Origin: Candidatus Acidiflorens stordalenmirensis
Lineage (GTDB): Bacteria; Acidobacteriota; Terriglobia; Terriglobales; Acidobacteriaceae
Direction: 5' to 3'
Assembly: GCA_003139995.1 (NCBI GenBank)
Contig: PLIC01000067.1
Coordinates: forward strand, 36,784-84,895
DNA: 48,112 nucleotides
In this document: one piece after another, positions 30,686 through 48,112 of the stretch
How positions within the stretch are numbered: the stretch's first letter is position 1
Layout: each line of letters opens with the position of its first letter
Program-made: the position numbers and the translations under genes
The notes under the pieces: model-generated
Seen by the model: the letters and a program-made list of their open reading frames with translations, nothing else
What the model was told of the DNA's origin: nothing
Database searches by the model: none

Positions 30686-30762
30686 TGGTAGGCCCGGCAG
30701 GAATCGAACCTGCAACCCTCGGATTAGAAATCCGATGCTCTTTCCATTTGAGCTACGGGCCC
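30686..30762 (-). tRNA. tRNA-Arg (anticodon UCU)
   Basis: The minus strand folds into a standard cloverleaf: acceptor GGGCCCG with CGGGCCT (G-U at the first pair), D arm GCTCAAATGGAAAGAGC, anticodon stem CGGAT/ATCCG around TTTCTAA with anticodon TCT, and T arm GCAGG-TTCGATT-CCTGC. The discriminator A is followed by an encoded CCA (30686-30688). It reads AGA and probably AGG codons, which should be rare in this genome. Confidence 0.97.
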
Positions 30763-39717: not shown

Positions 39718-39727
39718 TAAGTTCAAT

Positions 39728-39826
39728 TGGTAATTGGGTAATCTTGTAATTTGGTAATTTGAAACCCCATGCCCAGTGATCTACTGGTTTTCAAATTACC
39801 GAATTACCCGATTACGAAATTACAAA
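39728..39826. repeat. AT-rich octamer-repeat hairpin between mraY and murD
   Basis: The left arm is four 8-base units (TGGTAATT, GGGTAATC, TTGTAATT, TGGTAATT). The right arm (39787-39826) is their inverted copy (AAATTACCGAATTACCCG...). The arms of about 36 bases are separated by about 24 bases and could form a long hairpin. The base composition is far from that of the surrounding genes. Confidence 0.8.
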
Positions 39827-39848
39827 ATTCTCTCGGTTGTGGATTCTC

Positions 39849-40996: not shown

Positions 40997-42481
40997 TCAG
41001 TTGCTAGTCGTTGGTCGCTGGTCGTTAGTCGTCGGGCCCTGATGCTTGCTAGTCTGGGCCCCGATCTTCTTTTGCCACGTCTCCAGCGCCTTTTCCAGTT
41101 TGACGCCGCGCGACGCTTTCAGCAATACGACATCGCCTTCGCGAGTCTCGCGCGCGAGCCACTCGCCGGCTTCTTCTGGCGTCGCGACGAATTCCGCATT
41201 CAAGCCCGCTTCGCGAGCCGCTTCCACCATCGGCTTCGCCAAACCCCGCGCGCCAAGCAGGAAGTCTAGTTTGCTTCCGGCCTGAATTCCTGCAATGTAA
41301 CGCCCGCACTCGCGATGCAGTTGCTCGCCGGTGGCACCGAGTTCCAGCATTTCACCGGCGACAACAATCCGGCGCCGGGCGGGCATGGCAGCCAGAGTAT
41401 CGACGGCAGCCATAAGCGCCTTCGGACTTGAATTGTAGCAATCGTAGAGCACGGTGATGTTACCCACTTGGACGACCTGTCCGCGCTTGTCGGCGGGCTG
41501 GAGGGACGGCAGAGCTTCGGCGATCTCCGACGGAGTGATGCCGTGCTCAAGCGCAACCGCAGCCGCGGCGAGCACGTTGTACACGTTGTGCTTGCCCAGC
41601 AACGGACTCCGCACCGGCTGCCGCATTTCGCGGCTGACGAGATCGAAGCGCGTGCCTTCGGATCCAAGGACTTCGATGTTTTCCGCCCGCACATCCGCCG
41701 GAACACCTGCCGTCGGCTTCACGCCGAACAGAATGACCTTGCCCTTGAAGTCGCGGCCGAACTGGCAGACATATTCATCATCGGCATTTAAGACTGCCGT
41801 GCCGCCGTGCGGAAGAGCTTCGATCAGTTCATATTTCGCGCGCGCGATTCCGGCAATGGAGTCGAAGCTCTCCAGATGCACGGGGGCAATGTTGGTGACC
41901 ACGGCCTGGTTCGGCAGCGCGATGCGCGCCAGGGCCGAGATTTCGCCGGGGTGGGACATCCCCATCTCAACCACGGCGAGATCGTATTCCGGCTCGAGAG
42001 TCAGCAGCCCGAGTGGCAGACCAAAATGATTATTGAAATTCCCCTTGGTGCGATGCACGCGGTACTTGACAGCGAGCAAATAGGCCATCGCTTCTTTGGT
42101 GGTGGTCTTGCCCATCGAACCGGTAATGCCGATGGCGGTCTTGCCCCAAATTTTTCGGACCGCCGTCGCCAGCGTCTGCAACGCGACGAGAGTGTCATCG
42201 ACGGCGAGCAGGCTGGCGGGGTTGGAATACCGCGCCAGTTGCCGTTTCTCGACCACCGCGGCAGTCGCGCCTCGGCTCAGCGCCTGCTCGACGAAGTCGT
42301 GGCCGTCGAGGCGTTCGCCCTTGACCGCAAAGAAGAGTTCGCCGGGTTGCACGGTGCGGGAGTCGATGGAATATCCCTGGGCCGTTGCGCGACCTTCGTA
42401 TTGGCCGGCCGCGGCTTGGCCGGTCGGGGCTTGACTGGTCGGAGCAATGAATTCGGCGATGCGGGAGAGAAGAAGTTTCAT
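40997..42481 (-). CDS. murF: UDP-N-acetylmuramoyl-tripeptide-D-alanyl-D-alanine ligase with repeat-encoded tails
   Basis: 494 residues, overlapping murE by four bases (ATGA). ATPase loop IGITGSMGKTTTKEAMAYLL, then AVVEMGMSHPGEI, VLYDCYNSSPKALMAAVDTL and VVAGEMLELG. The enzyme adds D-Ala-D-Ala to the UDP-MurNAc-tripeptide. Two oddities come from repeated DNA. Near the N-terminus, APTSQ-APTGQ-AAAGQ is three 15-base units. At the C-terminus the family's end (LEKALETWQKKIG) is followed by about 19 extra residues ending in GPTTNDQRPTTSN, encoded by a heptamer repeat. The catalytic core is untouched. Confidence 0.96.
   Translation of the reverse strand: MKLLLSRIAEFIAPTSQAPTGQAAAGQYEGRATAQGYSIDSRTVQPGELFFAVKGERLDGHDFVEQALSRGATAAVVEKRQLARYSNPASLLAVDDTLVALQTLATAVRKIWGKTAIGITGSMGKTTTKEAMAYLLAVKYRVHRTKGNFNNHFGLPLGLLTLEPEYDLAVVEMGMSHPGEISALARIALPNQAVVTNIAPVHLESFDSIAGIARAKYELIEALPHGGTAVLNADDEYVCQFGRDFKGKVILFGVKPTAGVPADVRAENIEVLGSEGTRFDLVSREMRQPVRSPLLGKHNVYNVLAAAAVALEHGITPSEIAEALPSLQPADKRGQVVQVGNITVLYDCYNSSPKALMAAVDTLAAMPARRRIVVAGEMLELGATGEQLHRECGRYIAGIQAGSKLDFLLGARGLAKPMVEAAREAGLNAEFVATPEEAGEWLARETREGDVVLLKASRGVKLEKALETWQKKIGAQTSKHQGPTTNDQRPTTSN
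41001..41054. repeat. Heptamer-repeat element at the 3' end of murF
   Basis: Units AGTCGTT, GGTCGCT, GGTCGTT, AGTCGTC in a row, flanked by a direct repeat TTGCTAGTC (41001-41009 and 41046-41054). The block shares a run of about 20 bases with the element in rsmH at 47901-47963. It supplies the last codons and the stop of murF. Confidence 0.75.
42401..42445. repeat. Tandem 15-base repeat in murF
   Basis: Three units, TTGGCCGGCCGCGGC, TTGGCCGGTCGGGGC and TTGACTGGTCGGAGC, keep the frame and encode three pentapeptides of the form A-P-T-x-Q in the variable region before the SIDSRTVQPGELF motif. Confidence 0.75.
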
Positions 42482-44082: not shown

Positions 44083-46266
44083 TTATCTACCGAAACGGAC
44101 GGTAATGTGTGATCCCGCCGCGACGTGCGCACCGGGCAGGGGCGTTTGTTCGCGGGCGACGCCGCTGCCGACGGCGTCGAGGTCGAGCCCGGCATTCTGC
44201 GCGGCTTCAATCGCAACGCGCAGGTTTTTGCCGAGGAAGGACGGAACTTCGATTCCTCCCTCTTCCACATCGAGAACCACCGTGCCACTGGCCGGCAATT
44301 TCTGTGTGGGTGAATTCTCGGATTGCGTAGCAGGTGAACTCGCAGCCGCTGTCTCCGGGGCGGCCGACGCCGGTTGATCCGCTTCACTTCCGGTCATCGC
44401 CGCGGCAACGACCTGAGCGGCAATTGGGCCGGGCTTGACCGCTGCTGGAATGGCGGGTGTTTCACCGGCTTCGGCTATATCCAGGCTGGCGCCCAAGCGA
44501 TCGGGCGAGCTTTCTTCCAGGCTTGCGTCAGGGACATCGCGGCGAGCCAGCAAAACCTGACGGCTCGGCGGAAGCTGCACGTCATGCGGAACGTGCAAAT
44601 ACTCGAGCGCTTGCTGCGTGATCCGTTGAAACACCGGCGCTGAAACCTGACCTCCCTGGTGCAAGCCGACCGGTGAGTCGAGGATCACGACTACTGCAAT
44701 TTGCGGATCGTTGATGGGCGCGAAGCCGGCAAAAGACGCGACATATTTCGTCTTCGAATATGCGCCGGTGGCCGGATCTACTTTCTGCCCCGTCCCCGTC
44801 TTGCCCGCCGAACTGTAGCCTTCGAGAATCGCTTTGCGTCCGGTGCCGTGGAGCACCACTCCCTGCAGCATCTGCCGCATCTCGGCTGCAGTTAGAGATG
44901 AAATCACCCGCGTCCCCTCGGCAAGCTGGAAGGCGGCGGTTTGCGGGGCATTCTGCGGCTCAATGGTGCCGGCCACGATGCGCGGCGGGACGCGCATGCC
45001 GTCGTTGGCAATCGTCGAGATTAAGGAAACGAGCTGCAGCGGCGAAATGCCAATCTCCTGGCCCATGGAGATCGCGCCAATGGAAACTTTCGACCAGCGT
45101 TCCACCGGTTTCGTCAAGCCACGCGTTTCGCCGGGGAGTTCGATCCCGGTTTGCTGGCCGAATCCGAAAGCGCGGATGTATTTGTAGAAGCGCTCGTCGC
45201 CGAGTCTCAGCGCGACCTTGATGGCGCCGACGTCGCTCGACTCCGCAATAATGTCGGCCACCGAGAGCATGCCGTGCGGTCTGCTGTCGCGGATGCGCAT
45301 ACCGTTGATGACAATCGATCCCATCTGGCAGTCAAACATTTCGTCGGGGCGCGTGATTTTCTCTTCCAGGCCGGCGGAAATAGTCACCATCTTGAAAGTC
45401 GAGCCGGGCTCGTAAACGTCGCTCACGGCGCGGTTTTTCAATGCCTCGTTCTTTATTTCTTTCCGAATATTCGGATTGAACGTGGGCCGGTTGGTGAGCG
45501 CAAGGATCTCGCCGGTGTGAGGATTTTCCACGATCACCGTGCCGGCGATGGCGTGTGTCTCTTCCATCCCGCGATCGAGTTCCCGTTCGGCGATGTACTG
45601 GATGTTCTGATCGATGGTGAGGACGACGTTGTTTCCAGCTTCGGGTTCCTTTTCAACACTGGCAAACCAGCGTTTACGCGCGTCGACGGAAATCATCAGC
45701 TTGCCGGGCTTACCCTGCAGTTGCTGATTGAATTGCCACTCCAGGCCGCTCAGACCCTGATCGTCGGTGCCAACGTACCCCAGAACTTGCGCCGCCAGCT
45801 CCCGCTTTGGATAAAACCGCTTCGGCTCTTTCTGGAAGTGGATGCCTTGCAGATTCAGGGCGCGGATACGCTCAATCACTTCGGCATCGGCTTTCCGCGC
45901 CACCCAGCAAAAGGTCCTGTGGGCGCGGCAGTCGGCGAGCACAACGCGAGGATTGTCTTTCGTGATGCGCGCAATCAGACTGATGGTATTGGCGAGATCG
46001 GGAGCTTCCGAGGGCACCACGAAGGCCGAGTCCACCTGGATGGACATCGCCAGCTCACGCCCCGCGTGATCGTAAATGACGCCGCGTTTCGGAGAGAGAT
46101 CGAAGCTGCGCTGCTGCTGGTGCTGGGCGCGGCGCTCGAAATCGCCATAGCAGAAAATTTGGAGATAGACCAGCCGCACGCAGATTGCGAGCAGCCAGAA
46201 GCAAAGGAATCCAGACAAGGCATAGAGCCTGAATCTTGCGCCGTTCGAAGAGGTACTTGCCGCCAC
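44083..46266 (-). CDS. ftsI: Septal peptidoglycan transpeptidase (penicillin-binding protein) with PASTA domain
   Basis: 727 residues from GTG 46266. One membrane helix near the N-terminus (LYALSGFLCFWLLAICVRLV), a dimerisation domain (RGVIYDHAGRELAMS), then the transpeptidase domain with SxxK in EPGSTFKM and KTG in SAGKTGTGQK. The second motif, normally SxN, reads SSD (IIAESSDVGAIK), so the conserved Asn is Asp. After an Ala/Pro-rich linker (about 590-655) a single PASTA domain closes the protein (IEVPSFLGKNLRVAIEAAQN, GSHITVRFGR). FtsI crosslinks septal peptidoglycan with FtsW. The start codon follows a heptamer hairpin and has no clear ribosome site. Confidence 0.94.
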   Translation of the reverse strand: MAASTSSNGARFRLYALSGFLCFWLLAICVRLVYLQIFCYGDFERRAQHQQQRSFDLSPKRGVIYDHAGRELAMSIQVDSAFVVPSEAPDLANTISLIARITKDNPRVVLADCRAHRTFCWVARKADAEVIERIRALNLQGIHFQKEPKRFYPKRELAAQVLGYVGTDDQGLSGLEWQFNQQLQGKPGKLMISVDARKRWFASVEKEPEAGNNVVLTIDQNIQYIAERELDRGMEETHAIAGTVIVENPHTGEILALTNRPTFNPNIRKEIKNEALKNRAVSDVYEPGSTFKMVTISAGLEEKITRPDEMFDCQMGSIVINGMRIRDSRPHGMLSVADIIAESSDVGAIKVALRLGDERFYKYIRAFGFGQQTGIELPGETRGLTKPVERWSKVSIGAISMGQEIGISPLQLVSLISTIANDGMRVPPRIVAGTIEPQNAPQTAAFQLAEGTRVISSLTAAEMRQMLQGVVLHGTGRKAILEGYSSAGKTGTGQKVDPATGAYSKTKYVASFAGFAPINDPQIAVVVILDSPVGLHQGGQVSAPVFQRITQQALEYLHVPHDVQLPPSRQVLLARRDVPDASLEESSPDRLGASLDIAEAGETPAIPAAVKPGPIAAQVVAAAMTGSEADQPASAAPETAAASSPATQSENSPTQKLPASGTVVLDVEEGGIEVPSFLGKNLRVAIEAAQNAGLDLDAVGSGVAREQTPLPGAHVAAGSHITVRFGR

Positions 46267-46272
46267 GGATTG

Positions 46273-46361
46273 GGTCTCAGGTTTCAGGTCTTAGGTTTCA
46301 GGTCTCAGGTTGGACTCGTGAGCTTTCCACTGAGACCTGGGAACTGAGGCCTGAGGCCTGA
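46273..46361. repeat. Heptamer-repeat hairpin between ftsL and ftsI
   Basis: Left arm, six units: GGTCTCA, GGTTTCA, GGTCTTA, GGTTTCA, GGTCTCA, GGTTGGA (46273-46314). Right arm (46330-46361) is the inverted form, in units such as TCAGGCC and CCAGGTC read on the minus strand. It fills almost the whole gap between the two genes. Confidence 0.85.
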
Positions 46362-46362
46362 T

Positions 46363-46821
46363 TTACTGCGTCGCCACCACCGCGACCGGAGTCACGCTGG
46401 CCATTACTGGCGTGGAGGCATCGCTGACGGCGTCCATGCGAAGCACCTGCCCAGGCTGCGGCGATTGCATGCCGAGCTTGCGCGCCATTACATCAATTCG
46501 CTCCGGATCGCGCAGCGACGCCTCTTCCAGGCGCAAGGCCCGGTTCATTTCCGTAAGACCATCACGCTCGGTCCGCAGCGTCTCGATCTTGTAGCCGTAT
46601 TCGATCGCGCGAAAGTGCTGCAGCGCGTATCCCATGACCAGCAGAAACAAGCAACACAGCGCAAGCCCGAAGTATTTCATCTCGCGCGCGCGGCGCGGGT
46701 CTTCGACCTTCACCAGACGCGAGTTGTCGATGGTCTTGCGGAAATAGATTTCCGGGGTCCCCAGCCAGCAGGACTTGTGCCGGATGGAAAAAGCTGCGCT
46801 TTGCATGGCCACGGCGCTCAT
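46363..46821 (-). CDS. ftsL: Cell division protein FtsL-like
   Basis: 152 residues, ATG with GGAGTGG nine bases upstream. After about 50 cytoplasmic residues there is one membrane helix (YFGLALCCLFLLVMGYAL), a coiled-coil segment (IETLRTERDGLTEMNRALRL) and the ending IDVMARKLGMQSPQPGQV typical of FtsL/DivIC proteins. FtsL links FtsI and FtsW to FtsB and FtsQ in the divisome. The call rests on layout and position between rsmH and ftsI, because FtsL sequences are poorly conserved. Confidence 0.85.
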   Translation of the reverse strand: MSAVAMQSAAFSIRHKSCWLGTPEIYFRKTIDNSRLVKVEDPRRAREMKYFGLALCCLFLLVMGYALQHFRAIEYGYKIETLRTERDGLTEMNRALRLEEASLRDPERIDVMARKLGMQSPQPGQVLRMDAVSDASTPVMASVTPVAVVATQ

Positions 46822-47227: not shown

Positions 47228-48112
47228 TCAAATTTTTTCGGCGGCGCGCATCTTGGCACTGCGCGACCGCGGGTTGCGATCGATCTCTTCTTCGCTGGCC
47301 GTCACCGGCTTCTTGGTCAGCAGCCGGTACCAGCCCTGCTTCGCGCCGTCGTGAAGCGCATCCTTGACGATCCTGTCTTCGAGCGAGTGAAAACTGATCG
47401 TCACCAGCCTTCCGCCCGGCTTCAGCACGCGAGGCGCCGCCTCCAGCAGTGCTTTCAGATCGTCCAGCTCACGATTTACGAAGATTCGGAGAGCTTGAAA
47501 GGTTCTTGTCGCCGGATGAATCCGCTCATGTTTCATTGACCGGGCCGCGGCTGATACTACTTCGACAAGTTGCTTTGTCGTGCGTATCGGCCGCGACCGG
47601 ACAATGGCTCTGGCGATTCTCCGCGACCTCCTTTCCTCACCGAATTCGTAAATCACATCGGCCAGCTCGCGCTCGTCGATGTGGTTTACCACTTGTTCGG
47701 CGGTCTCGCCGGACACCGGGTTCATCCGCATGTCCAGCGGTCCTTCCGCCTGAAAACTGAATCCCCGCGCCGAGTCGTTGAGTTGCAGACTGCTCACGCC
47801 CAAGTCCGCCATCATGCCGTCGAGGGATGCGGGAGCGACTCGCTCACCGGCTTCCGCAAACGATCCATGAATCAGCGTGATCTGCGGCCAATCCAACTCC
47901 GGTCGTTGGTCGCTGGTCGTTGGTCGTTCGGCAGCAGCTTCGCTGACGACTAACGACGAACGGCTATTGATTGGCTTTAGCCTTTCGCGGGCCTGTTCCA
48001 GCGCCGCAGGATCCTTATCGAAGCCAATCAAATGTCCCGGTGCGCCGAGGCGTCTTGCGATTTCGTAACTGTGCCCGCCCAAGCCCACTGTGGCATCCAG
48101 ATAAGTTCCGCC
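47228..48112 (-). CDS. rsmH: 16S rRNA (cytosine-1402-N4) methyltransferase, N-terminus outside the window
   Basis: The frame is open to the window edge, so the first residues are missing; GTYLDATVGLGGHSYEIARR is the SAM-binding start of the family. Other motifs: FDKDPAALEQARERL, DGMMADLGVSSLQLNDSARG, ARAIVRSRPIRTTKQLVEVV and VTISFHSLEDRIVKDAL. The enzyme methylates C1402 of 16S rRNA. Between ARERLKP and ITLIHGSF there is an extra stretch of about 28 residues (including SSLVVSEAAAERPTTSDQRP) that family members lack. It is encoded by a heptamer-repeat hairpin, and the enzyme reads through in frame. Confidence 0.95.
   Translation of the reverse strand, partial: GGTYLDATVGLGGHSYEIARRLGAPGHLIGFDKDPAALEQARERLKPINSRSSLVVSEAAAERPTTSDQRPELDWPQITLIHGSFAEAGERVAPASLDGMMADLGVSSLQLNDSARGFSFQAEGPLDMRMNPVSGETAEQVVNHIDERELADVIYEFGEERRSRRIARAIVRSRPIRTTKQLVEVVSAAARSMKHERIHPATRTFQALRIFVNRELDDLKALLEAAPRVLKPGGRLVTISFHSLEDRIVKDALHDGAKQGWYRLLTKKPVTASEEEIDRNPRSRSAKMRAAEKI
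47901..47963. repeat. Heptamer-repeat hairpin inserted in rsmH
   Basis: Left arm GGTCGTT, GGTCGCT, GGTCGTT, GGTCGTT, then CGG; loop region GCAGCAGCTTCGCTG; right arm ACGACTAACGACGAACGG, partly inverted. Same family as the element at the end of murF. Its length and phase leave the rsmH frame open. Confidence 0.8.

Follow-up and report, generated by a model that had tools for sequence, protein, structure and literature searches.

A hairpin with heptamer arms lies in frame in the rsmH gene of the genome under study (G000), and heptamer hairpins form a dispersed, lineage-specific class in this genome and its relatives. The rsmH hairpin is probably (about 0.6) one copy of this class, whose members would be homogenised locally through slippage and template switching and would persist in genes mainly where a protein loop or tail is permissive. 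The window, i.e., the whole stretch of DNA analysed (48,112 nucleotides), belongs to G000, a peat-soil Acidobacteriota MAG of 5.49 Mb in 313 contigs (93% complete); other G numbers denote genomes of relatives, L numbers denote loci. The following features were located at the rsmH end of the window:

47228..48112, − strand: in-window part of rsmH, 16S rRNA (cytosine1402-N4)-methyltransferase (TIGR00006); the gene as called extends to 48190.
47894..47986, − strand: RsmH residues 43–73 of the window translation, facing 2 residues in 1wg8 (for 3tka, query residues 42–72).
47901..47928, + strand: first hairpin arm, four heptamers GGTCGTT/GGTCGCT/GGTCGTT/GGTCGTT (direct reading, Tandem Repeats Finder).
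47929..47944, no strand: spacer between the arms, 16 nt, CGGCAGCAGCTTCGCT.
47945..47964, − strand: second arm, inverted and imperfect; GACGACTAACGACGAACGGC on the + strand, GCCGTTCGTCGTTAGTCGTC on the coding strand.

The called rsmH gene comprises 963 nt (320 residues and a stop codon); its frame is open and its end at 48190 lies beyond the window. The in-window part scored 299.7 bits against the RsmH equivalog TIGR00006 (cut-off 154.3), with a single RsmH match in G000; the frame survives, as originally predicted. The heptamer hairpin predicted inside the gene, GGTCGTT-type units followed by an imperfect inverted arm, was read directly from the DNA. Tandem Repeats Finder gave period 7, 4.0 copies and 90% matches for 47901–47928, which encodes part of AERPTTSDQRP on the − strand and was the sole match in the 48 kb window at lags 5–12 (≥18/21 matches). 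The 75-nt segment 47896–47970 folded as the + strand with z −3.86 (0/200 shuffles as good); for the coding strand the fold was weaker (z −1.98; 8/200). Rfam at the gathering threshold returned a single match for the whole window, one tRNA at 30689–30762, and none at the rsmH hairpin.

On the protein, 31 query residues stand against 2 in solved RsmH 1wg8 and in 3tka, and the "about 28 extra residues" of the original prediction were correct within a few; the three alignments with solved RsmH that were displayed break at query residues 41–55 and restart at 73–96. An AlphaFold2 model of moderate quality (mean pLDDT 66.6; stretch 106–136 also low) placed residues 50–71 (window 47900–47965), without secondary structure, between helix 35–44 and strand 77–82, with pLDDT of about 32 over 51–70. 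In this model, which answers the structural check proposed beforehand, the hairpin and a predicted disordered RsmH loop coincide almost exactly. RsmH is dispensable in E. coli.

A search of the genome for GGTCGTT arrays, proposed together with the original prediction, found them genome-wide: G000 gave 197 matches to GTCGTTGGTCGTTGG at ≤2 mismatches vs 32 for the reversed control. All 24 genomes of the genus matched GTCGTTNGTCGTTNGTCG, from 1 (G022) to 248 (G015) times, the reversed pattern giving 0 to 5 matches. Among 299 genomes drawn from the taxonomic class any match occurred in 34 and more than five matches in 8, the reversed control of the same scan exceeding five matches in at least 15 genomes (up to 31, G243); the 8 genomes all belong to family f1 and represent four genera. 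In G189, G243, G269 and G155 this control word (GCTGNTTGCTGNTTGCTG) is frequent in its own right, with 18 to 31 matches. The GTCGTT unit consists of GTCGTT and one free base, mostly a purine; unit types at other loci include TTCGCTN, AGTTCTC, AGCTCTC and AATTTGT. For GTCGTT arms within 200 nt of each other, the hairpin orientation (+−) was found 19 times, the opposite one (−+) 0 times and the parallel one 4 times.

Array counting by period was carried out on 755 kb (14%) of G000, on contigs picked mainly for GTCGTT matches, so that the array density is biased upward. This sample contained 74 period-7 arrays (Markov control 0); periods 5, 6, 8, 9, 10, 11 and 13 gave 0 to 12 arrays (controls 0 to 2). 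A chance repeat was rejected for the rsmH array on the uniqueness in the lag scan, the fold z-scores and the Markov control of 0.

Many dispersed copies, and several repeat families at the rsmH loop, would also be expected of a non-autonomous palindrome mobilised by a REP-associated (Y1/RAYT) or other transposase, each occupied site being a separate transposition; Y1_Tnp matches were found in 22/24 congeners, and 9 in G000 (RAYT and IS200-type counted together). Over the 24 genomes, however, array density and Y1_Tnp density were uncorrelated (Spearman −0.12, p 0.57), and no period-7 array, GTCGTT pair or palindrome C or E lay within 900 nt of any of 6 Y1 genes (2/9 of those of G000, 4 in relatives). 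G009 and G005 carry 91 array matches each with zero Y1 matches, at 83% and 71% completeness, and the variable copy number of the arrays is unlike a fixed element. The link to a Y1 (REP-type) transposase was rejected on the density comparison and the 0/6 flanked genes, and transposition in general is regarded as unlikely.

With the genes of G000 called by a codon-usage method, 54 of the 74 arrays were intergenic, 14 spanned gene ends and 6 lay within genes, the last vs about 59 expected from the coding fraction of 0.804. The phrase "protein-invading", used beforehand for such repeats, thus fits some arrays but covers a small, tolerated part of them (6/74 in called genes). For non-genic arrays the median distance to the closest stop codon was 13 nt (32/58 within 30 nt). 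This proximity, and a self-complementarity preserved despite sequence change, would suit hairpins under selection as signals at the RNA or DNA level (terminators, attenuators or stabilisers of mRNA 3' ends), the rsmH copy being a translated regulatory hairpin. Against it, convergent spacers were not favoured (arrays 48 tandem, 10 convergent, 10 divergent; spacers 356, 93 and 93), the coding-strand fold at rsmH is weak, as given above, and the congener G020 has rsmH without the insert; selection as signals is somewhat less probable still than transposition.

Arrays other than that of rsmH were located in the window as follows:

39727..39829, no strand: hairpin of 7-8-mer TTGGTAAT units between genes; fold z −6.10 (39724–39832).
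41007..41033, − strand: GTCGTT-type array in the C-terminal tail of MurF, PTTNDQRPTTSN-stop (gene 40997–42481).
46273..46361, no strand: hairpin of GGTCTCA/GGTTTCA units in the spacer between ftsL and the PBP (ftsI-like) gene; fold z −6.95 (46268–46366).

The in-gene arrays of G000 include loops and one tail that are missing from solved homologues. In mtaB (TIGR01579; 388.5 bits, cut-off 357.05) the insert lies between GRDL and LVDLIRAIL; its inverted arms, separated by 89 nt, are perfect over 20 nt and consist of mixed heptamers. MtaB has 52 residues there vs 12 in MiaB 7mjv. The site was empty in five outgroup sequences, and the congeners carried GTCGTT, CAGCTCT, CAGTTCT or CAGCCGT arrays in the loop (12/20 above the strict score; 1/23 rows, G021, left out). 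The mtaB loop (L121; congeners L122–L141) was seen to be a second sink for arrays, G003 and G017 carrying two unit families serially. A Tgt homologue contains CAGCCGT heptamers over 25 residues (about 178–202) vs 3 residues in the best solved chain, and a ThiE homologue has a similar, less clean array. The ThiE homologue (L089:14676–15374) has a second odd stretch, PLRTENQELRTRLL, which looks like a translated GAACTGA-type heptamer. The sixth in-gene array (C73:6743) may be due to chance.

The rsmH loop was compared within the genus (10/30 loci left out) and more widely (12/48 loci left out; G003 represented by a fragment only, the frame of G021 unreliable). GTCGTT arms around a spacer were found in six members of the genus (G000, G015, G005, G016, G001, G002), TTCAGCC- or TGTCAGT-type heptamers in G004, G009, G012, G013 and G017, TTCGGC-like heptamers in G006, the palindrome GACGGGCGAGGACGCCCGTC in G007, G008 and G009, and GCCGGCG(T/A)CTCGCCGGC in G010 and G011; the loop of G020 was almost empty. 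The close relative G015 shares the residues of G000 as repetitive DNA, and not as the non-repetitive DNA that had been named beforehand as evidence against an insertion.

A set of 81 Terriglobales rsmH rows was assembled from the best 80 of 138 named MAG loci and G000; one of the six search peptides (DQRPELDW) falls within the insert, so that the set may favour similar inserts. With repeat types called beyond the 1% level of shuffled loops, a recognised repeat was present in 43/81 rows and absent from 38/81. Five types occurred: GTCGTT arrays (19 rows), other heptamers (12; rows scored GTCGTT excluded), palindrome C (3), palindrome D (4) and repeat E (9), the last being TCCCTCGACT...GCTCGGGATGACA; two types stood together in 4 of the 43 rows. 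The peptides of the loop vary by repeat family (SRSSLVVSE, SLQPSAVSE, GATGVLARP, PSTALSSAIADE). Repeat E was found in frame in RsmH at L190, L199, L206, L211, L216, L223, L228, L230 and L235 and has an inner palindrome; some of the MAGs bearing it are named Ca. Sulfotelmatobacter. Its end word gave 21 matches in the 755 kb of G000, 19 of them intergenic. Palindrome D (GCCGGCGTCTCGCCGGC), present in the rsmH loops of relatives, was absent from the sampled G000 DNA at ≤2 mismatches.

On a tree of RsmH made without the loop, the fewest state changes were 36 overall and 18 for GTCGTT, counts that are rough because 30/78 inner branches were unresolved. With midpoint rooting, the basal clade opposite the array-bearing one had no recognised repeat in 15/15 rows and 15–19 residues at the site. 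An AU test rejected a single clade for the 19 GTCGTT rows, a group defined from the loop itself (p 1.65e-109), and one insertion followed by simple descent was rejected for all 19 on this ground. Between sister rows, L201 had an array and L217 none, L222 had heptamers and L228 repeat E; L211 had only repeat E, which L223 shares but with an array adjoining it, a weakly supported pairing. The claim that a hairpin had entered rsmH stood as regards an extra segment, relatives without the insert existing; a single entry did not, five repeat types occupying the loop, nor did a single repeat element, the heptamer arrays at orthologous sites also differing in sequence between species.

A phase-variation switch, in which gain or loss of one 7-bp unit toggles the frame of rsmH, would use a unit length not divisible by 3, and array length does differ between species. 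The loop segment, however, was free of stops in 81/81 rows, and the clearest sister pair (L188 and L203) differs by 21 bp, i.e., three heptamers, with three substitutions in the loop. The units are moreover imperfect, so that slippage should be lower, and such a switch is very improbable. Equally little credit is given to the extra peptide as an adaptive RsmH binding loop with incidental repeats: it was found in six congeners, but it changes with the repeat family, is missing in near relatives and is predicted by the model to be unstructured. An assembly artefact, for which the MAG origin of the contig and the start of a G018 contig inside the loop might speak, was rejected as practically excluded, since the same in-frame element occurs in other MAG assemblies (L171, L172, L174, L176; three in contigs of 34–314 kb).

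Turnover of the unit sequence was seen at orthologous sites. The murF tail carried heptamer-like tracts in 7/8 genomes, with units such as AGTCGTT, AGCTGTC, AGTGGTT, AGTTCTC and AGTTATC (5/7 arrays passing the strict score); the eighth genome, G004, had no flank match there and was unmatched at 2/4 compared sites. In the ftsL-ftsI spacer, the GGTCTCA hairpin of G000 stands against an AGTTCTC-type one in G015, both arms having changed; in the remaining six genomes the spacer holds, as judged by eye, an unrelated palindrome, GGCGGC...GCCGCC. The site 39727–39829 has a similar hairpin in G015, G008, G002 and G020, and a CACAGAG-built hairpin instead of TTGGTAAT in G001; for such unrelated hairpins at an orthologous site, replacement or new insertion would be easier than drift.

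Distances between units within arrays, lowered because the arrays were picked for internal similarity, were 0.160 (murF), 0.191 (mtaB) and 0.146 (rsmH); between species (best of 14 rotations/strands) they were 0.422, 0.385 and 0.353, and 0.487 for unrelated random arrays. The between-species value exceeded the larger within-array value in 9/10 (murF), 54/66 (mtaB) and 188/231 (rsmH) species pairs. For adjacent arrays of G000 and six relatives, at loci that are not all independent because some are orthologous, the median inverted-arm distance was 0.16 vs 0.46 for shuffled partners; 16/23 pairs, of several unit families, were at ≤0.25, and the remaining 7/23 were not close inverted arms. Because units are closer within an array than between orthologous arrays, and arms mostly match by locus, the pattern shows arrays that look locally homogenised while their sequence drifts. 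A consensus hairpin of 29 pairs, derived from the same five rsmH orthologues on which it was scored (the longer insert of G005 left out, no slid control), had 134/145 cells paired and 5/29 pairs compensatory. A predicted match of the free seventh base between GTCGTT arms failed, with 19 matches observed vs 19.3 expected from shuffled pairings, which counts against simple arm-to-arm copying in this family.

The preferred reading, local homogenisation of a dispersed hairpin class, would proceed in the following steps. Slippage of 7-bp units would change the number of copies; this step fits the 21-bp difference between L188 and L203 and the similarity within arrays. Quasipalindrome correction, in which replication switches template from one hairpin arm to the other at the fork, would keep the arms alike, and new sites may be seeded occasionally by some copying route. 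The comparisons made turned up no empty/occupied pair that bears a target-site signature. Selection would remove most in-gene copies and leave the frame-open ones in permissive surface loops; in RsmH this would be the loop that joins the helix following the GFDKD motif to the subsequent strand. The host protein is not claimed to benefit.

As 7 is not a multiple of 3, all frames of a GTCGTTN strand encode the same seven-residue peptide, VV[GSRC]R[SLW or stop]S[LF], and a stop codon, depending on N, can arise once per 21 nt; judged from the code, this property should ease the entry of such arrays into genes. A more far-reaching reading is put forward tentatively, with rather less confidence than the preferred one: the class may have a disposable sequence and inherit period 7 and self-complementarity, rewriting itself in situ, one arm with the other, as species diverge, and doing so inside conserved proteins; the loop peptides of RsmH and MtaB may have been swapped wholesale several times per genus, and coprime heptamers may be a natural protein-entering repeat.

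Rickettsia palindromic elements (RPE) reportedly occur in protein genes, as described by Ogata in 2000 and 2002 and by Claverie and Ogata in 2003. Their copies have one alignable sequence of roughly fixed length across genes. The present hairpin resembles them as a short palindrome, in frame in a conserved protein gene, tolerated and absent from homologues. It differs in its tandem-heptamer arms, in the mostly intergenic location of its class, in several families sharing one loop and in a unit sequence that changes while period and hairpin persist; in place of the fixed-length shared sequence of RPE, copy number is variable here and there are several unit families. For the Rickettsia elements, PMC6649704 states that repeat identity is lost with time.

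A further likeness is with the heptamer hairpins of the Nostoc trnL P6b region, for which the accessible text (PMC4476775, PMC3488679) describes repeated replacement of heptamer classes: paired arms of degenerate heptamers, variable copy number and a switch of unit class at an orthologous site with the hairpin kept, as in the ftsL-ftsI spacer of G000 and G015. There, as far as that text goes, two classes occupy one site in a group I intron (tRNA-Leu), whereas here many loci and several families are involved, including translated parts of conserved enzymes. The TAACTGA arrays of marine Beggiatoaceae, in or overlapping ORFs, are likewise dispersed heptamers and mostly intergenic; the part of PMC4679880 available describes one heptamer in direct repeats (one indirect), many of them directly upstream of starts, and quotes an older proposal that 7 nt is a possible polymerase-interacting length favouring slippage. 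The GGGAATC-type arrays of Xanthomonas and Nostoc are dispersed, in excess in non-coding DNA, near stops or starts, with four units preferred; they form G-quadruplexes, and the portion of PMC4692102 at hand describes no inverted arms or insertion into protein loops. Coding palindromes of Nematomorpha mitochondria are inverted repeats that are translated and that come and go from species to species, for which template switching was proposed to account for concerted arms; they are perfect and up to 284 bp long, and the available sections of PMC6649704 mention no tandem unit. REP/BIME sequences with RAYT (cf. PMC2817692) share the many dispersed short palindromes in bacterial spacers; the present arrays differ in their heptamer arms and in having no association with the Y1_Tnp genes compared here. 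REP hairpins carry a conserved GTAG-like tetranucleotide at their foot.

The "different kind of protein-invading repeat" suggested by the original prediction was therefore narrowed: heptamers in ORFs (PMC4679880) and switching heptamer hairpins (PMC4476775) appear in the available parts of published papers, and the combination in conserved protein genes was not found in the literature searched. No report of this hairpin class in Acidobacteriota was found among the open-licence papers listed. What appears to be new here is protein-entering palindromes with heptamer arms that turn over, both components being already known separately. The data suggest that short repeats enter proteins and are rewritten inside them, repeatedly. 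The range of protein-entering palindromes, described from an intracellular parasite, would then include soil Acidobacteriota, which are known from MAGs; a second logic, tandem heptamer arms turning over while the hairpin stays, would be added, and loop peptides coded by repeats (ERPTTNDQR and SLQPSAVSE, for example) would be explained. The loops of RsmH and MtaB, which hold different repeats in close relatives, are natural replicate experiments in which the origin of disordered loops in conserved enzymes, and slippage vs template switching in bacteria, would be directly testable.

Two contig breaks were noticed in or around the RsmH loop. The G018 contig mentioned above (C556, L101) starts at query residue 50, and the RsmH matches of G003 stop at residue 34 and restart at 140 on another contig (C1, C51; L102, L103); both breaks are perhaps an effect of the repeats on assembly. 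The tail of the PBP (window 44083–46266, − strand) contains EAGETPAIPAAV, which resembles what is presumably the translation of a common palindrome.
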